From: Bacteroidia bacterium
GTDB taxonomy: Bacteria > Bacteroidota > Ignavibacteria > SZUA-365
Length of the DNA: 64,000 nucleotides
Direction of reading: 5' to 3'
Assembly: GCA_027493955.1 (NCBI GenBank)
Contig: JAOSJT010000001.1
Location: 124,001 to 188,000 of the forward strand
Within the stretch, counting starts at the first letter, position 1, and each line of letters starts with the position of its first letter. Shown one piece after another: positions 33,072 through 47,131 of this stretch. The position numbers were made by a program, and so were the translations under genes. Under the pieces are notes generated by a model, which saw nothing but the letters and a program-made list of their open reading frames with translations, searched no databases and was not told the DNA's origin.

Positions 33072-34370
33072 TCAGGGTTGGTGGAATGTGGATAACGCTT
33101 TTTTGCCGATATCGGTGCGGTAGTAAGCGCCGTCGAAACGGATACGGTTCACGGCATTGTAGGCGATGCGAATTGTTGTCGCGAAGTCCTTATCCTCACC
33201 GAGCGCCGTGACGCCGAATACGCGTCCCCCGGCGGTGACGATGTTTTTTCCCTGCATTGCGGTGCCGCTATGGAAGACCACAACGCCTTCCGCCGCCTCA
33301 TCGATGCTGTCGAGTCCGGCTATGGCCTTGCCCGTCTGATAGGCATCAGGGTAGCCATTGGAAGCGATCACGACGCAGACCGCGTTCGCGTCGTGCAGGG
33401 GTACGCGATTGAGTTGCAGGTTGTCCATGGCGATGTCGTGCAGCAAGGAGGCCAGGTCGTAATCGAGCAGCGGGAGCACGACTTGCGTTTCAGGATCGCC
33501 GAAGCGGCAGTTATACTCCAGAACCTTCGGACCCTCGTCGGTGAGCATCAGGCCGACGAAGAGCACGCCGTTGAACGGTATACCATCGGCGCGCATACCG
33601 TCGATGGTGGGTTTGATGATACGGATTTTGATGTCTGCAAGTATCTCGGTGGGGACCCAGGGCGTCGGGGCGAAGGCGCCCATGCCGCCGGTATTTTTTC
33701 CAAGATCATTATCCAGAATGCGCTTATGATCCTGGGCCGGAGCAAGCGTCACGAAGCGGTTTCCGTCGGTCAGCGCGAACACCGAGGCCTCGATGCCGGT
33801 GAGGAATTCCTCGATCACGAGCGTGGTACCCGCCGCACCGAACGCACTGCCGGAAAGCATTTCACGCGCGGTAAGCAGGGCCTCATCGAAGGCCTGCGCG
33901 ATAACGACGCCCTTACCGGCGGCCAGGCCGTCCGCCTTGAGCACGAGCGGGTACTTCGCGTGGCGGAGGTATTCTCTGACGGCTTCCTCATCTCCTGTCC
34001 GGAACACTTCGTATGCGGCCGTGGGGATGCGGTGGCGCTTCATAAAGTCCTTCGCGAAGGCCTTGCTCGTCTCGAGCTGCGCCGCAGCCGCGGTGGGACC
34101 GAAAATACGCATTCCCTCGGCACGAAACGCGTCGACGATTCCCTCAGCCAAAGGCGCTTCAGGTCCGACTACTGTCAGATCGATATTCTGCTTTTTGGTG
34201 AAAGCGAGGAGTTGCGGTACATCGGTTGCCTTGATCGGAATGTTTGTGCCGAGCGCGGCGGTACCCGCATTGCCGGGTGCGCAGTACAGCGCGGTCACGA
34301 GTTTACTGTGCGAAAGCTTCCAGCAGATGGCGTGTTCACGACCGCCGCTGCCCACGACGAGGATGTTCAT
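33072..34370 (-). CDS. purD: Phosphoribosylamine-glycine ligase
   Basis: A 432-residue ATP-grasp enzyme making glycinamide ribonucleotide in purine synthesis. It begins MNILVVGSGGREHAICWKL, the PurD N-terminal signature, followed by VGPEAPLAEGIVDAFR, LVLKADGLAAGKGVVIA, the NTGGMGAFAPTP motif and EYNCRFGDPETQVVLP. Length and all motifs are normal. It overlaps the glycosyltransferase gene stop by four bases. Other pur genes are not in the window, but guaB lies 3 kb upstream on the same strand. Confidence 0.97.
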   Translation of the reverse strand: MNILVVGSGGREHAICWKLSHSKLVTALYCAPGNAGTAALGTNIPIKATDVPQLLAFTKKQNIDLTVVGPEAPLAEGIVDAFRAEGMRIFGPTAAAAQLETSKAFAKDFMKRHRIPTAAYEVFRTGDEEAVREYLRHAKYPLVLKADGLAAGKGVVIAQAFDEALLTAREMLSGSAFGAAGTTLVIEEFLTGIEASVFALTDGNRFVTLAPAQDHKRILDNDLGKNTGGMGAFAPTPWVPTEILADIKIRIIKPTIDGMRADGIPFNGVLFVGLMLTDEGPKVLEYNCRFGDPETQVVLPLLDYDLASLLHDIAMDNLQLNRVPLHDANAVCVVIASNGYPDAYQTGKAIAGLDSIDEAAEGVVVFHSGTAMQGKNIVTAGGRVFGVTALGEDKDFATTIRIAYNAVNRIRFDGAYYRTDIGKKALSTFHQP

Positions 34371-35756: not shown

Positions 35757-36863
35757 TCACAGCTCCATCAATTCGCGGGGGAAGCGTGTGATGCTTTCGG
35801 ACCCCTCGCGCTGTACCAGTACATCATCCTCGATGCGGATACCGAACTCGCCCGGGAAATACACACCCGGTTCGATAGTAACAATCTGCCCGGCTTCGAG
35901 GAGACGCTCGCTGCGCGACGAAAGCACCGGTGTCTCGTGCACGTCGAGTCCCAGGCCGTGACCGAGGGCATGCCCGAAATACGTATCCATTCCGGATTCC
36001 GCGAGACCTTCGCGCGTCAGTGCGTCCAGGGTGCGCGCCGCTACTCCCTCCCGTACAGCGTCCCTGGCGGCTTGCTGGACTCTCTGCAGCTGATCGTAGG
36101 CAGCACGGAAGCGTTTTGACGCGCGTCCCAGGATGAAGGTGCGCGTGATATCGCTGCAGTAGCCTTTCACCTTGCAGCCGATATCCATCAGAATCGGCTG
36201 GCCGCGTTTGAGGCGATGCGGACCGGGAGTGCCATGCACAAGCGACGTACGTGGGCCGAAAAGCACGATGGGGTCGAAGGCGTCACCGTCTGCCCCGGCT
36301 TCGCGAAGGCGATAGCTGATGCGCGCGGCTATGCTCTGTTCGCTCACACCGGGACGCAGGTCGGAGAGAATATCGCGAAGCACGGTCTCGACCACATCCA
36401 CCGCATTGCGGAGCGACGCGAGTTCGAGCGGCGATTTCTTCTCACGCAGCGATTCCACGATGCCGGTGAGCGGATGCAGCGCGCTTCCCTTGAAGGTTTT
36501 CTTGAGCGTGCCATGGAGGGCGACACTGACATCCTCCGCCTCGAAACACAGCGCTTCGGCTCCCTTCAGCGCACCGACGCGCAGCAATGCGTCGGACAGA
36601 CGCTCCTGACCGGCGATAAGCAGCGTTGCTTCACGCACCTCGTCGCCGGCCTGTTCTTCGTAGCGGCTGTCCGTCACCAGCAGGGCGGAGTGCCGCTTCA
36701 CGAGCAGCCATCCGTTGCTTCCGGTGAAGCCGCTGAGGTAACGCACATTCGTCCGCTTCGTCACGAGCAGGGCATCGCAGCCGCGCTCACGGAGGGAGGC
36801 GCGAAGTCCTCGAAGGCGACCAGCGATTTCCGGAGAGCGGAGTATCTTGCGCTTGGGCGTCAC
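35757..36863 (-). CDS. Xaa-Pro aminopeptidase (M24 family)
   Basis: A 368-residue creatinase-fold metallopeptidase. The N-terminal domain (about 1-130) contains KRTNVRYLSGFTGSNGWLLV. The C-terminal pita-bread domain holds the five metal ligands: Asp in PILMDIGCK, Asp in YCSDITRTF, His in GHALGHGLGLDVHE, Glu in VTIEPGVY and Glu in IRIEDDV. Length is normal for PepQ/PepP-type enzymes. It follows a 148-bp gap containing three DnaA boxes; the glycosyltransferase gene follows after one base. Substrate is peptides with proline in the second position, by family. Confidence 0.93.
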   Translation of the reverse strand: MTPKRKILRSPEIAGRLRGLRASLRERGCDALLVTKRTNVRYLSGFTGSNGWLLVKRHSALLVTDSRYEEQAGDEVREATLLIAGQERLSDALLRVGALKGAEALCFEAEDVSVALHGTLKKTFKGSALHPLTGIVESLREKKSPLELASLRNAVDVVETVLRDILSDLRPGVSEQSIAARISYRLREAGADGDAFDPIVLFGPRTSLVHGTPGPHRLKRGQPILMDIGCKVKGYCSDITRTFILGRASKRFRAAYDQLQRVQQAARDAVREGVAARTLDALTREGLAESGMDTYFGHALGHGLGLDVHETPVLSSRSERLLEAGQIVTIEPGVYFPGEFGIRIEDDVLVQREGSESITRFPRELMEL

Positions 36864-36878
36864 GAACGGGTCCGTGAA

Positions 36879-37003
36879 TGTGGATAATTACGTCGAATCT
36901 GTGGATAACTATGCCAGTCTGTCGAAAATGGGCCTGAAATCGTTGATTTCTCAGCTCTTTTCGGTGAGAGATCTGGCGCTTGGTCCGGCAGGATTGTGGA
37001 TAA
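36879..37003. promoter_or_regulatory. Cluster of three perfect DnaA boxes
   Basis: TGTGGATAA, the exact complement of the DnaA box TTATCCACA, occurs at 36879-36887, 36900-36908 and 36995-37003, all in the same orientation. The first two are 21 bases apart (two helical turns). The whole set lies in the 148-bp gap between guaB and the M24 peptidase gene. Two one-mismatch boxes (TTATCCACG near 37923, TTATCCACC near 38229) lie inside guaB. Confidence 0.75.
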
Positions 37004-37011
37004 CTCCAGAC

Positions 37012-38484
37012 TCAGTTACTGCCCGCCTGATAGTTCGGAGCTTCCTTCGTGATGAAAACGTCGTGCGGGTGGTTCTCCTTGAGCCCCGCGGCCGTCACCT
37101 GGATGAATTCGGTTTTGCTCTTCAGGTCCGCAATAGTCGCGACACCGCAATACCCCATGGAGGCACGCAATCCGCCGAGCAGTTGATAGACGGTTTCTTC
37201 GAGGAGTCCACGATACGACACCATGCCCTCAATGCCTTCAGGAACCAGTTTTTTTATATCGTCTTCCACATCCTGGAAATATCTGTCCTTGCTCCCTTCC
37301 TTCATCGCGCCTAAGGAACCCATGCCGCGATACACTTTGTAGCGGCGGCCTTCATAGAGGATTTTTTCACCGGGACTCTCTTCCAGACCTGCGAACATTC
37401 CGCCGATCATGACAGAATCCGCGCCGGCCGCGATGGCCTTGGGCACGTCGCCCGTTTGCTTGACGCCTCCATCCGCGATAATGGGAACGCCATACTTGAC
37501 GGCAGCTTCGGCGCAATCCATGATGGCGGTGATCTGGGGTACGCCCACGCCGGTGACGACGCGCGTCGTGCAAATACTGCCGGGTCCGATACCCACTTTC
37601 ACCGCATCGGCGCCGGCTTTGATCAGGTCCTCCGTCGCGGAACCGGTACCCACGTTTCCGGCGATGAGCTGCAGATCCGGGAAGCGTTTCTTGACTTTCT
37701 TTACCATCTCCAGCACCCCCGCCGAGTGTCCGTGCGCCGTATCGACGATCACCACATCCACCGCGGCGTCCACAAGCGCCTGCACGCGATCCAGGGTATC
37801 GGCGGCGATGCCCACCGCGGCGCCGGCACGCAGGCGTCCGAGCGAATCCTTGCACGCGTTGGGATGGTGCTTCTTTTTCATGATGTCCTTGAACGTGAGC
37901 AGGCCTCGCAGACGCCCTTTTTTATCCACGACCGGAAGTTTCTCGATGCGATGCATCTGGAGGATGGATTCCGCTTCTTCCAGGGTGGTGCCGAGCGGGG
38001 CTGTGACGAGGTTGTCGCGCGTCATGATGTCGTACACCAGCATGGAGCGGTTGGGCTCGAAGCGCAGGTCGCGGTTGGTGAGAATGCCGAGAAGCCGCTC
38101 CTCCTCGTCCACGATAGGGATGCCGGAAATTTTATAGCGCTCCATCAGCTCATGCGCGTCGGCGACGGTTTTGTCAGGACGCAGGGTGATGGGATTGACG
38201 ATCATGCCGCTCTCCGAGCGTTTGACCTTATCCACCTCTTCCGCCTGCCTGCGGATGCTCATGTTTTTGTGGATGATGCCGATACCGCCCTCTCTGGCCA
38301 GGGCGATGCCCATGTCGGACTCGGTGACGGTGTCCATGGCCGCGCTGAGCAAGGGTATGTTCAGCTCGATGGTGCGCGTCAATTTGGAACGGACATCCGC
38401 TTCACGCGGGAGGATGGAGGATTTTCGCGGGACGAGCAGAACGTCGTCGAACGTAAGGCCGAGGCGGATCTTTTTCTGCGGCAT
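37012..38484 (-). CDS. guaB: Inosine-5'-monophosphate dehydrogenase
   Basis: A 490-residue enzyme making XMP from IMP with NAD, the first step to GMP. The N terminus [20 protein letters not shown] is diagnostic. Two CBS domains lie at about 95-205 ([40 protein letters not shown]). The barrel has [14 protein letters not shown] and the catalytic Cys loop [20 protein letters not shown]; the flap region holds [18 protein letters not shown]. Length is normal. It lies 26 bases after glutaryl-CoA dehydrogenase on the same strand and before the DnaA-box gap. Confidence 0.97.
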
Positions 38485-41398: not shown

Positions 41399-44300
41399 AT
41401 GATGCTTGCCGGATCCCTCCGTTTCACAGCTGCCTTTCTCCTCTGTTGCCGTATCGGAGTCGCCGCGCCGTCTGTCACCTTTGCTGACAGCGGTGAAGGC
41501 GGCTTTCGCATTGAGCAGTACCGCGACAGCCATGAAATTTTTCTGCTTCGCGATCTCACCCGCACTCACCAGCATGACGCCGCACCCTTCGCGGCCACCA
41601 CGATGCTGAACGGTGTGCGTGTCTTCTTTTCTCCGCAGGGCCTGCATTTCGTCCGTTACACCGCGGCGCATGCAACGGCGGCGGACGAACGCGTGAACCG
41701 CGCAACGGAAATTTTTAGCGGGTGGATGACGCACCGGGTCGATTTGCGTCTTGTCGGGAGTGCGCCGGCCTCCGTCGAGACCATCGGTCGCGCAGATGCG
41801 CACAGGTGGGTCTACACACACGCGGCTCCGTATACGGACGGCAACGCCTGGCAGGGACTTCGTTACCGCAACGTCTGGCCCGGCATCGATTTGGAGTGCC
41901 TCGCGACCCAAGACGGTATAAAGTACCAGTTTATCGTGCATCCCGGGGCGGATGCTCGTTTGGTACGTCTCCGGATGGATGGTGCGAACGGCACCTCTCT
42001 GCTTGGTGACGGCACGTTACGCCATGACTGCGGCGCGTGGAGCATCAGCGATGCGGCACCCGTAGCATTTGTTCAGGGAGCGGAGGCCGATCGCATACCG
42101 GCGCGCTGGAAGCGGGCAGGCAAGGATTTGCGTTTCGACATCGGTGCGGTACCCACCGGGAAGACGCTTGTGATAGATCCTTTTTTGCAATGGAGCACTT
42201 TCATGGGCGGCTCGCTTTCCGACTATGCGAGAGATGTGGCGGTGGGAGCGGACGGCTCCACCTATGTTTGCGGCTACACGGCGAGCACGGATTTCCCGGT
42301 CTCTCCCGGGGTGATGCAGTCCGCTTTCAGCGGGAGTTTCGATCTCTTCATCACGAAGTTTTCCCGTGAACGGAGACGTGTTTGGACGACCTTCTTCGGG
42401 GGATCGGGCGCCGAGGAAAATCCGCAGATAGCGCTGTCGCCCGGTGGCGATATCGTTGTTGGAGGTTCCACCTCCAGCGTGGATTTGCCCATCGGTACAG
42501 GCACAGCGCAACAGCGGAATGGTGGTCGCTACGACGTGTTCGTGCTCGCGCTCGATGCCGACGGGCGTCGCAAGTGGGTTAGCTACCTCGGCGGGAGCTA
42601 TACGGACGAACTGGGTGGACTCGCCGTGGATGCGCAAGGACGGATCTGTCTTGCCGGTGCGACCTACAGCACCAATTTCCCGGTAACCCCTGATGCCTGG
42701 CAGACCAGCAACGCGGGTGATTTCGATATGTTCGTCGCACGTTTTACCGCTGGCGGAGCGCTCGACTGGGCCACGTACATCGGCGGATGGAGCATGGACA
42801 TCGCGACGGATATCGCGGTCAATGCATCCGGGGACATGTTCATTTCCGGGAGGAGCGAGAGCACCAATCTTCCCGCGGTCGGCGACAGCTTCCAACCGCA
42901 GTACGGTGGTGGTACCTTCGATGGTCTGTATTATCACATCGACGGACGACTTCGCAGAGTCATCCGCGGCAGTTATCTGGGTGGTGAAGGCGAGGATTGC
43001 GCCGAGCGTATTGCTGTCCGAAAAGACGGGAGTATTGTCATCGCGGGATATACGGAGAGTCAGCGCTTCCCGGTGAAGGGAAATCTTTCGCCGAAGAAGG
43101 GTGGTGCGATAGATGGTTTCGTCGCGGTGCTCGAAGGAAAGGGAGACCTCCGCTGGTCCGCGGTATTCGGCGGCGCGGACCTGGACAGAGTCGGTTGCCT
43201 GGATGTGGACGCGAATGGAAACATTTTCCTCGCCGGGGTCACCGCGAGCAAGGATTTTCCTCTGGCGGGAATTCCTGATCAAAAGGAAAAAGGCATGGGC
43301 TTCGACGCGTTCGTGATGCGGCTCGGCAGCAACGGCGCATATCTCTGGGGAAGTTTTGCGGGTGCCGAAGGGCATGACATCGCGCATGGCATCGCCGCGG
43401 ACGCAAAAGGGAACGTGGTTGTCGTGGGCGGAACAGAGAGCCGCGGATTCAAGACCGCAGGAAATCTCTTTCAGGCCGATCGCAAAGGACTGACGGACGC
43501 ATTCATCCTGCGGCTGATCTTTGATGAACCGCTCGCAAGCGCGGGACCCGACACGACAATCTGCGCAGGAAGTTCCGTCGTTTTGGGTGGAGATATCGGC
43601 GGAGGACTGCCGCCGTATCGGTTCCTGTGGGAGCCCTCGTCCGGATTGAACAAAAGTAACGAACAGCGACCGACCGCGACGCCTTCGCACACGACAACGT
43701 ACGTCCTGAGCGTCACAGACGCCGAAGGCGCGGTAACGCGCGACACCGCCGTCGTGACCGTGGTAGCATTGCCCGTGGCGAAGGCGGGTCCTCCGCAAGC
43801 CGTCTGTCCCGGCTATTCGGCGACTCTGGGCGGAAGCGCTTCGGGCGGCAGTCCTCCGTACCGGTTTTCCTGGGCTCCGGCGGATGGTCTGCAGAGTCCC
43901 GGCACGGCAGTCACCACGGCTACGCCGCGTCGAAGCACCTGGTACACACTGACAGTCACCGATGCACGGGGCTGTACTTCGAGTGATTCCGTATTGGTGA
44001 CCGTGCATCCTCCGCTGACCGTCGACGCAGGCGGAGACCGCGAGGCATGCGCAAACACGCCATCCCTTCTGCAGGCCGAAGCCAGGGGCGGCACCCCGCC
44101 GTTCCGCTACGCCTGGTCGCCTTCCGCGATTATGGAGAATCCATCCGCGCGCGAAACGCGATTTACCCCACGCGGGAATATCGCTGTAAGTGTGCTGGTG
44201 ACGGATGCCAATGGCTGCGTTACCGGCGATACAATACGCATCATCGCGCATCAGCCGCCCGTGGTTGACGCCGGTGACGCTGTGTCGCTTTGTGCGGGTG

Positions 44301-47131
44301 AAAAAACCGTGCTCAAGCCCCGGAGCAGCGGCGGCAAGCCACCGTACAGCTACAGGTGGTCTCCGGCTGAAGGACTCAGCTCACCGACTATCGCAGCACC
44401 ACAGGCCTCGCCAATGGTCACGACGCGCTACGTACTGACGGTGACCGACGCGAACGGCTGCTCCACTGCGGATTCCCTGTTGGTCGCGGTACATCCGCAA
44501 CCCGGTCTGAACATGGTCGCTGATGCCATTTCCTGTACCGGTGTGCCCGTGCGCATCGGAGCAGAGGCGGCGAACGGAACACCTCCGTACCGCTATCAGT
44601 GGTCCCCGGTCACGGGACTGGACAATCCCTCGGCAGCCATGCCCCTCGCTTCGCCGTCACGCAGCACGACCTACGCTGTTACCGTCACGGACGCGAATGG
44701 TTGCCGTACAGGCGGCACGGTGCGTGTCACCGTGCAGCCGAAGCCGGTGCTGAAAGTCAGTGGCGGTGTCACGCTTTGCAGAGGTGCCTCGACGCAACTG
44801 ACCGCGAGCGTACGCGGTGGGACAGCACCGTACACCTATCTGTGGAAGCCGGAGGCGGGGCTTTCTTCCGCCACTTTGCCATCGCCCGTTGCAGCCCCGT
44901 TGCTGTCCACAACATATCGCGTGACCGTTACCGATGCGGCTGGCTGTGTCGTGGAAGAGCAAATTTCGGTGGCGGTCGCGGATGTCCCGACCGTGAATGC
45001 GGGAAAGGACGTTTCTCTCTGCTCCGGCGCTGAAGTTGAACTCAACGCGAACGTCACCGGCGGACGTCCACCATATCGATTTGTATGGAGTCCGGCCACC
45101 GGGCTCAGTTCGACACGCACGCTCAATCCGCGCGTCGCCGTCAATCGCACGACATCGTATATGCTCACCGTCACGGACGCGTCGGGCTGCACCGTGAGCG
45201 ACTCGGTGACGGTGTTCAGTACGGTCGCGCCGAGAGTGCAGGCAGGGCCCGATGCCACGATCTGTGCCGGCTCCATCGTACAGCTTACATCTGCCGTCAC
45301 GGGAGGAACGCCGCCGTTTTCCTGGAAATGGTCACCGGCGTTCGGCCTCAGCAATGCGTCCATTGCAGCACCTACGGCCAGCCCCACGTCCTCAACGCAA
45401 TATACCGTGACTGTAACGGACGCACTGGGCTGCACCGCCGCAGATCAGGTGGTCGTTACGGTGCATCCTCCTCCCGCACTGTCTTTACCGAAGGAACTGA
45501 CGATTTGCAGAGGGCAGTCGAAGCGCATCGAACTCGGTGTCAGCGGAGGCAGCAGACCGTACCGCTACGAATGGGTACCGCGAGAAGGACTCAGCGATGC
45601 CTCGGCGGCATCACCCGTCGCCAATCCTGTACAAACCACCACGTATTCCGTGACGGTGACCGATGCACACGGGTGCAAAAGCACGGCGATGATTGTCGTC
45701 ATTGTACAGCCGTGTAACAAGGCGGATGCCGGGATGGATCAGGACATGTGCGTCGGCGCGGCGGTGCGTCTCGGTACAACTTCGCCGGACAGCAGCGACA
45801 AAGCGCAGTTTACCTGGACGCCTGTAACCGGGCTCGACAATCCTCTGTCGCCCGCTCCCATGGCCGCGCCGCTGGCAACGACCCGGTATATACTGCAGGT
45901 AGGCAATTCCTTTGGTTGTGTGGCGCGCGACACGGTGCTGGTACGAGTACGGGAGGTCCCCCGGATACAGGTCACGCCGGATCTGACGGTGTGCAACGGC
46001 GGCAGTGCACGGCTTGCTGTGCAGGTGAAAGGCGGGAAGGCACCGTATCGCTTTACCTGGTCGCCGCAAAGCGGACTTTCGCGTACGGTGGAGGCGCGTA
46101 CGGAAGCGCGGCCGGTAGCCACGACACGCTATACCGTAACCGTGACCGATGCCGAAGGATGTTCGAGTCGCGACTCCGTGCTCGTCACCGTCGCTCCCCC
46201 GTTGGCAATGTCGCATGATAGATCCGTGCTCCTGTGCGAGGGAGAGGGGATCACGATTGGAGCACGCGTCACGGGAGGTACGCCTCCCTTCAATTTTTTT
46301 TGGAGTCCTCCGGAAGGTCTGGATAGCCGGACCGTCGCCAGCCCTCTCGCGTCGCCCCGGCGCAGTCTGAAATACACCGTTACTGTGACCGACGCATCCG
46401 GCTGCCAGCTCATCGACACGGTGATGGTAACGGTCCTGAAGGTGCCACGTGTCGACATCACTGCCTCCGGAGCCACCGACATCTGTGAGGGACGGTCTGT
46501 GCGTCTGAACGCGCCTGTTGGATTTACGCGGTACCGATGGTCGAATGGTAGCGAAGGACCGGAAATACTGGTGGGCGAGCCGGGGGAGTACTTCGTGAGT
46601 GTCTGGAACGAGGCCGGATGCGAAGGTCGCAGCGCGCCGATTATCGTGCGGGTGTTTCAGCCGCCTACACCCGAAATTACCGCTCTGGGTCCATTGCGAT
46701 TCTGTGAAGGAGATAGCGTCGTGCTCGACGCGGGCGCGGGTTTCAGGAGCTACCGATGGATCGGGGGGGGGAGCGGCCGCCGCCTCACCGCACGAAGTGC
46801 CGGTGAATACCGCGTGACAGTGGCAGGACCGGGAGATTGCGAAGAGACGTCGGAGGCCGTCCGTGTACAGATAGATCCGGCCCCTGTGGCCAGAATTTCG
46901 TCGCAGGGCGACACGTTGATCGCGAGCGATGCGGAAAGCTTTCAATGGCGGAGGGATGGAAAAGTGATCGCCGGTGCGACGGCGCGTTGGTACATTCCGA
47001 CACGCGCAGGGAACTACACGGTCTTGGTCACGAACGAGCGCGGTTGTTCCGTCGTCAGTCCGGCGATGCGTTGGCGTCCCGGCACAAAAGTGGGTTCGCC
47101 GGTACGCCGGAACGCAGGCAGCCGCCGATAG
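41399..47131 (+). CDS. Giant surface protein: SBBP propeller plus 12 PKD-like repeats
   Basis: A 1910-residue secreted protein with signal peptide SLRFTAAFLLCCRIGVAAPS. Residues about 30-260 form an N-terminal domain often found before SBBP repeats. Residues about 260-710 are beta-propeller SBBP repeats with recurring YLGGSYTDELGGLAVDAQGR-like units and D-x-NG turns. Residues 715-1686 are twelve PKD-like repeats averaging exactly 81 residues, each with an N-terminal C.G, a GG.PPYRY.WSP..GL core and a YTVTVTDA.GC end. Three shorter Ig-like units follow to the C terminus. No T9SS type A or B sorting domain is recognisable at the end (GSPVRRNAGSRR), so the export and anchoring route is unclear. 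Likely an adhesin or cell-surface scaffold. Confidence 0.85.
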   Translation: MMLAGSLRFTAAFLLCCRIGVAAPSVTFADSGEGGFRIEQYRDSHEIFLLRDLTRTHQHDAAPFAATTMLNGVRVFFSPQGLHFVRYTAAHATAADERVNRATEIFSGWMTHRVDLRLVGSAPASVETIGRADAHRWVYTHAAPYTDGNAWQGLRYRNVWPGIDLECLATQDGIKYQFIVHPGADARLVRLRMDGANGTSLLGDGTLRHDCGAWSISDAAPVAFVQGAEADRIPARWKRAGKDLRFDIGAVPTGKTLVIDPFLQWSTFMGGSLSDYARDVAVGADGSTYVCGYTASTDFPVSPGVMQSAFSGSFDLFITKFSRERRRVWTTFFGGSGAEENPQIALSPGGDIVVGGSTSSVDLPIGTGTAQQRNGGRYDVFVLALDADGRRKWVSYLGGSYTDELGGLAVDAQGRICLAGATYSTNFPVTPDAWQTSNAGDFDMFVARFTAGGALDWATYIGGWSMDIATDIAVNASGDMFISGRSESTNLPAVGDSFQPQYGGGTFDGLYYHIDGRLRRVIRGSYLGGEGEDCAERIAVRKDGSIVIAGYTESQRFPVKGNLSPKKGGAIDGFVAVLEGKGDLRWSAVFGGADLDRVGCLDVDANGNIFLAGVTASKDFPLAGIPDQKEKGMGFDAFVMRLGSNGAYLWGSFAGAEGHDIAHGIAADAKGNVVVVGGTESRGFKTAGNLFQADRKGLTDAFILRLIFDEPLASAGPDTTICAGSSVVLGGDIGGGLPPYRFLWEPSSGLNKSNEQRPTATPSHTTTYVLSVTDAEGAVTRDTAVVTVVALPVAKAGPPQAVCPGYSATLGGSASGGSPPYRFSWAPADGLQSPGTAVTTATPRRSTWYTLTVTDARGCTSSDSVLVTVHPPLTVDAGGDREACANTPSLLQAEARGGTPPFRYAWSPSAIMENPSARETRFTPRGNIAVSVLVTDANGCVTGDTIRIIAHQPPVVDAGDAVSLCAGEKTVLKPRSSGGKPPYSYRWSPAEGLSSPTIAAPQASPMVTTRYVLTVTDANGCSTADSLLVAVHPQPGLNMVADAISCTGVPVRIGAEAANGTPPYRYQWSPVTGLDNPSAAMPLASPSRSTTYAVTVTDANGCRTGGTVRVTVQPKPVLKVSGGVTLCRGASTQLTASVRGGTAPYTYLWKPEAGLSSATLPSPVAAPLLSTTYRVTVTDAAGCVVEEQISVAVADVPTVNAGKDVSLCSGAEVELNANVTGGRPPYRFVWSPATGLSSTRTLNPRVAVNRTTSYMLTVTDASGCTVSDSVTVFSTVAPRVQAGPDATICAGSIVQLTSAVTGGTPPFSWKWSPAFGLSNASIAAPTASPTSSTQYTVTVTDALGCTAADQVVVTVHPPPALSLPKELTICRGQSKRIELGVSGGSRPYRYEWVPREGLSDASAASPVANPVQTTTYSVTVTDAHGCKSTAMIVVIVQPCNKADAGMDQDMCVGAAVRLGTTSPDSSDKAQFTWTPVTGLDNPLSPAPMAAPLATTRYILQVGNSFGCVARDTVLVRVREVPRIQVTPDLTVCNGGSARLAVQVKGGKAPYRFTWSPQSGLSRTVEARTEARPVATTRYTVTVTDAEGCSSRDSVLVTVAPPLAMSHDRSVLLCEGEGITIGARVTGGTPPFNFFWSPPEGLDSRTVASPLASPRRSLKYTVTVTDASGCQLIDTVMVTVLKVPRVDITASGATDICEGRSVRLNAPVGFTRYRWSNGSEGPEILVGEPGEYFVSVWNEAGCEGRSAPIIVRVFQPPTPEITALGPLRFCEGDSVVLDAGAGFRSYRWIGGGSGRRLTARSAGEYRVTVAGPGDCEETSEAVRVQIDPAPVARISSQGDTLIASDAESFQWRRDGKVIAGATARWYIPTRAGNYTVLVTNERGCSVVSPAMRWRPGTKVGSPVRRNAGSRR
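43541..46456 (+). repeat. Twelve 243-bp (81-residue) coding repeats
   Basis: The region encodes twelve consecutive PKD-like units of 79-83 residues, together exactly 2916 bases. DNA identity between units is low and protein identity is moderate, so this is an old array kept by selection rather than recent slippage. Each unit has paired cysteines (C near residue 8 and C near residue 66) that could form a disulphide. Confidence 0.8.

Follow-up and report, generated by a model that had tools for sequence, protein, structure and literature searches.

A helically phased array of three DnaA boxes between guaB and pepP is a conserved, candidate extra-origin DnaA site in a family of Ignavibacteria

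We identified an array of three DnaA boxes in the gap between guaB and pepP of an Ignavibacteria genome, conserved in all 12 examined genomes of the family to which the genome belongs. As predicted from its sequence and conservation, this site very probably captures the initiator DnaA or places a neighbouring gene under DnaA control, and is not the replication origin. The reading that we prefer, to which we give a probability of roughly 0.5, is that of an extra-origin DnaA-box cluster on which a DnaA oligomer would titrate or adjust DnaA. Chromosomal control of DnaA from outside oriC has been worked out in Escherichia coli and partly in Bacillus and Streptomyces, and we found no description of such a site for Ignavibacteria in the literature searched. 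A single, precisely spaced, family-wide site offers a simple target for separating titration from nucleotide-state control in this class, and phylogenetic footprinting is able to find such sites in mostly uncultured bacteria.

Results

The analysed stretch of DNA, here called the window, comprises 64,000 nucleotides (bases 124001-188000) of a single 5,237,942-bp contig. Upstream of the boxes lies guaB, which encodes IMP dehydrogenase (37012..38484, minus strand; Pfam PF00478 plus CBS domains), and downstream lies pepP, which encodes an M24 family metallopeptidase (35757..36863, minus strand; Creatinase_N and Peptidase_M24 domains, Pfam PF00557 and PF01321). The first-pass annotation of this DNA, made from the letters alone, had pointed out three perfect boxes in one orientation, two of them 21 bases apart, in a 148-bp gap. 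Both observations are exact: the consensus TGTGGATAA occurs at 36879-36887, 36900-36908 and 36995-37003, and 148 bp separate the pepP start at 36863 from the guaB stop at 37012. All three boxes are on the minus strand, where box 1 (36879..36887) reads TTATCCACA and lies closest to the pepP start. Box 2 (36900..36908) is 21 bp, or two helical turns, from box 1, across a 12-bp gap (36888..36899). Box 3 (36995..37003) is 116 bp, or about 11 turns, from box 1 and 8 nt past the guaB stop. A possible weak box with two mismatches, TGTCGAAAA, is found on the same strand at 36920..36928, 41 bp from box 1.

Only 41 perfect DnaA boxes are present in the 5.24-Mb genome, and a triple of them within 116 bp is expected by chance about 1.7e-5 times per genome. 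The guaB-pepP cluster is the sole such perfect-box cluster, and boxes 1 and 2 are the only same-orientation pair in the genome separated by at most 30 bp. One-mismatch boxes inside guaB, also mentioned in the first-pass annotation, are indeed present (37922, 38228 and 38268), but their positions are mostly lost in relatives, and we treated them as chance or coding matches rather than as part of the site. A fourth perfect TGTGGATAA lies close to the 3' end of purD (window 33087-33095), 3.8 kb from the cluster. On the other side of guaB, the window encodes a 1910-aa protein (41399-47131) with beta-propeller (SBBP), SprB and PKD/Ig-type repeats, which is probably a surface or secreted protein.

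For comparison across relatives, guaB and its surroundings were taken from 40 genomes, and the loci were fetched for the best 30 of these matches. Three direct boxes are present at guaB in all 12 genomes of the family, which represent five genera with the source genome counted. Box 1 is identical in 12/12, box 2 in 11/12 (one mismatch in G002) and box 3 in 9/12 (one mismatch each in G006, G007 and G011), so that only four of 324 box positions are substituted. Every family genome places box 2 at 21 bp from box 1. The distance from box 1 to box 3 is less uniform: ten genomes have 115 or 116 bp (11 turns), G001 has 147 bp (14.0 turns) and G004 has 150 bp (14.3 turns). In 11 of the 12, the spacing approximates an integral number of helical turns. 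Box 3 invariably starts 6-9 nt past the guaB stop. Ungapped identity is 0.37 over the first 60 bp of the spacer, 0.30 over its last 40 bp and 0.30 in the flank before box 1; after gapped alignment, spacer identity is at the level of shuffled spacers, and spacer and flank are near saturation. Because the boxes were kept in 12/12 genomes while the surrounding DNA changed almost completely, the three-box site is very probably a real conserved element, and its footprint predicts that it is functional.

The pair geometry is also confined to this location. When 391 genomes of the class were scanned, the exact 21-bp pair was found in 11 family genomes, as one copy per genome and always at guaB; the twelfth family genome carries the guaB pair with one mismatch in one box. 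Nine further class genomes contain the exact pair, none of them at guaB. Outside the family, the three-box site is absent, and guaB and pepP mostly abut there.

The array may extend beyond the three perfect boxes. Across the 12 family genomes, mean pairwise identity in the conserved 12-bp gap is 0.518 against 0.254 for shuffled sequence, and at +10/+11 from box 1 a degenerate, in-phase, box-like signal gives a mean of 4.4-4.5 matches to the box against 2.4, although the signal is poor in the source genome's own copy and the shuffle results are only indicative because the sequences are related and non-independent. Among 155 offsets in these genomes, the best mean matches to a direct box, after the perfect-box positions themselves, are at +41, +11 and +10, the first of which coincides with the possible weak box described above. 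These weak signals are in helical phase, with those at +10/+11 one turn along from box 1 and that at +41 about two turns past box 2, and this pattern suggests an array of phased strong and weak DnaA sites. An IHF consensus with at most one mismatch was found in only one of the 12 family spacers, with those of G001 and G004 searched at full length. The genome contains three HU/IHF-family matches, and both of the two examined fall below the IHF cut-offs.

The history of the gap was reconstructed from the neighbouring genes. An acyl-CoA dehydrogenase gene, guaB and pepP are adjacent in much of the class. Measured from the guaB stop to the first conserved peptidase residue, the distance is 22-53 nt in most relatives outside the order, where the genes almost abut, 134 nt in two genomes of the same order but outside the family, which have no strong boxes, and 176-230 nt in the family, where the boxes lie inside. 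We therefore conclude that the widening of the gap dates to the order, and the gain or fixation of the box array to the family. Within the family, the internal geometry of the array is kept while its pepP side drifts.

This location is also where a DnaA-controlled transcription switch could be expected, a reading that we regard as a real possibility at somewhat below even odds. The first-pass annotation had named DnaA control of the peptidase gene, alongside a DnaA-titration site, as alternatives to an origin. On this reading, box 3, once occupied by DnaA, would block read-through from guaB, and DnaA on boxes 1 and 2 would repress or activate a distinct promoter of pepP; the peptidase, or the synthesis of guanine nucleotides, would in this way be coupled to the replication cycle. 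The boxes fill the space from the guaB stop to the pepP start in all family genomes, and such a stop-to-start location favours transcription control; since the site abuts the 5' region of pepP, its position would suit a purely regulatory role equally well. Given how closely guaB and pepP adjoin in most relatives outside the order, an independent point of control may be a gain of this family, and DnaA is a known transcription regulator and roadblock in E. coli (PMC11317965). However, a scan of the window's guaB-pepP gap found no promoter-like or terminator-like site, and the family spacers contain no conserved promoter-like block; by eye, a terminator hairpin is suggested in the spacers of some relatives only. 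Nor is the pair geometry common to a set of genes, as it occurs once per genome. The first-pass annotation had appealed to DnaA control of gua genes in E. coli, which is a weak precedent because ChIP-seq in that species shows DnaA not bound within guaB (PMC11317965). For their part, the unique geometry in each genome and the rigid spacing favour a cluster that titrates or adjusts DnaA, and the sequence by itself is compatible with both readings.

It is improbable that the boxes are the 9-mer of another protein, act through RNA or clustered by chance: DnaA binding is deduced from sequence, yet the conserved unit is the exact consensus DnaA box, the genome's DnaA carries the usual GGRDHTTIIHACRTIE motif, the near whole-turn spacing is as for DNA binding, and the low chance expectation together with conservation in 12 genomes opposes coincidence.

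The first-pass annotation had put forward the cluster as a replication origin, on the basis of a short intergenic gap that holds three perfect boxes and has a local switch of gene strand nearby. The sole Bac_DnaA family match in the genome is dnaA at 3,568,024-3,569,445, so the guaB site lies 1.83 Mb away, 70% of the half-chromosome toward the point opposite dnaA. GC skew, sampled in 63 stretches of 20 kb over the genome, takes mostly negative values between about 1 and 3.5 Mb and mostly positive ones from 3.58 Mb around the chromosome to about 0.7 Mb. In the stretches starting at 3.54, 3.56, 3.58 and 3.60 Mb, it is -0.057, -0.002, +0.039 and +0.044, placing the sign change at dnaA. The skew minimum that had been proposed as a check near 37 kb is absent: within the window, cumulative skew climbs through the guaB site, and the sign changes at 3.56-3.58 Mb instead. 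The strand switch near 39.7 kb is visible, but its value as an origin indicator is lost, because such switches are common in this genome, where the plus-strand coding fraction ranges from 0 to 0.96 between 20-kb samples along the chromosome. The spacer, correctly described earlier as not very AT-rich, has about 51% G+C in the source genome and 36-55% across the family, and thus offers no AT-rich unwinding region.

A set of boxes resembling an origin flanks dnaA instead. Upstream of the gene, most relatives in the family carry a pair of boxes spaced by about 11 bp and a further box immediately ahead of the dnaA start; past the stop, a box follows at about +15 to +30, with one or two more near +215/+223, and in the source genome an AT-rich stretch follows the downstream set. 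These dnaA-flanking boxes (G000:C1:3567779-3569673), which are conserved in the family, are likely a bipartite oriC, the clear origin elsewhere that the first-pass annotation had itself named as grounds for abandoning its idea. A dnaA-linked oriC agrees with the prediction for Melioribacter roseus, also of the Ignavibacteria, whose oriC is flanked by dnaA and dnaN (PMC3534657). In relatives, guaB and dnaA sit on different contigs. Given the skew, the position of dnaA and the conserved boxes linked to it, we rejected the origin reading, whose probability we put close to nil.

Discussion

Our preferred reading, the extra-origin DnaA-box cluster, is supported by a perfect-box cluster that is unique in the genome, by the conservation of the boxes, their whole-turn spacing, the weak signals at +10/+11 and +41, and an oriC that lies elsewhere. 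It is also supported by the acquisition of the array in a gap that opened between two genes once almost contiguous, and by the occurrence of the same box layout at unrelated genes in other lineages. Counting against it, known titration clusters in Bacillus and Streptomyces are near oriC (PMC4585315) and the guaB site is far from it, and the sequences that yield the weak-box signal are related and not independent, with little of this signal seen at +10/+11 in the source genome. On the proposed mechanism, DnaA molecules on boxes 1 and 2 would face the same side of the helix, the weak in-phase sites between and beside these boxes would be filled as well, and a loop of about nine turns would bring in DnaA bound to box 3. 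Such an oligomer would remove free initiator or alter its nucleotide state. This effect would recur whenever a replication fork copies the site, about 70% along the chromosome arm and thus late in each round, and the time of the next initiation would be tuned in this way. An effect on pepP transcription may go along with titration. No match to Hda above the curated cut-off was found in the genome, which makes it likely that DnaA is restrained in some other way.

Several known arrangements of DnaA boxes bear comparison with this site. Six DnaA-box clusters (DBCs), described as oriC-proximal, are known in Bacillus subtilis (Okumura et al. 2012; reviewed in PMC5295017 and PMC13220808). The guaB site resembles them as a DnaA-box cluster outside oriC, in a lineage where Hda was not detected, and differs in being one perfect-box cluster at 1.83 Mb rather than six near the origin, with a role that is predicted. 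Like a DBC, it gathers several consensus boxes outside oriC beyond chance: three perfect boxes lie within 125 bp, far from dnaA and conserved in 12 genomes. E. coli datA comprises five boxes and depends on an IHF site that separates boxes 2 and 3 (PMC4585315). The guaB site shares with datA the character of an extra-origin cluster of sites for the same protein whose spacer must loop or bend, but its strong boxes number three, and its spacer has no conserved match to the IHF consensus and thus no IHF site of the kind that lies between the essential boxes of datA. E. coli DARS1 and DARS2 likewise have a three-box core at an extra-origin site. However, boxes I and II of that core are opposed, as a DARS requires (PMC8682772), whereas the guaB boxes are all direct in 12/12 family genomes, and we rejected this assignment. 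Paired, same-orientation boxes close to gene starts are also found at regulated E. coli promoters, where double boxes are separated by 2-3 bp (PMC11317965) and not by 12 bp as at the guaB site. Boxes 11 bp apart from start to start, leaving a 2-bp gap, are present upstream of dnaA in relatives. In function, these classes are defined by DnaA binding and earlier initiation upon deletion (DBCs), by hydrolysis of the ATP carried by DnaA (datA) and by release of ADP from DnaA (DARS). By its layout, the guaB site is to be placed, as a sequence-based assignment, with the extra-origin DnaA-box clusters.

A more specific version, which we consider unlikely, is that the site is a newly built element like datA or DARS, with all-direct, helically phased strong and weak boxes and a looped third box, which would alter the nucleotide bound to DnaA in a lineage with no detectable Hda, the same layout having been evolved by unrelated phyla at different genes.

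We scanned about 85,000 species genomes for this layout, defined as a 21-bp direct pair with a third box 70-100 bp further on, and obtained 116 loci. One group of 19 loci holds most of the dnaA-linked origins, and others are lineage-specific. A set of 16 loci, mostly from Anaerolineales-type Chloroflexi, has a direct-box cluster that adjoins an rmlD-like gene in those checked (L156:5881-5995, L205:3101-3278). In the three Anaerolineales genomes checked there is no perfect box near dnaA, and skew is flat along one contig. The cluster there may be an extra-origin site or the origin itself: the latter is suggested by a dnaA without nearby boxes, and this together with the flat skew is why we do not call it extra-origin.

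Another 22 loci come from Glycomycetaceae and carry direct boxes, for the most part at 0, 21, 42, 102 and 123 (for example, L114:4718-4849, L094, L109, L157 and L202). This array is probably an extra-origin cluster like those reported near oriC in Streptomyces and Bacillus (PMC4585315). At the one locus checked, it falls inside the frame that encodes an AAA_10 ATPase-like protein. In two Glycomycetaceae genomes, dnaA is about 215-235 kb from the array, if the large contig carrying dnaA is the same as that of the array.
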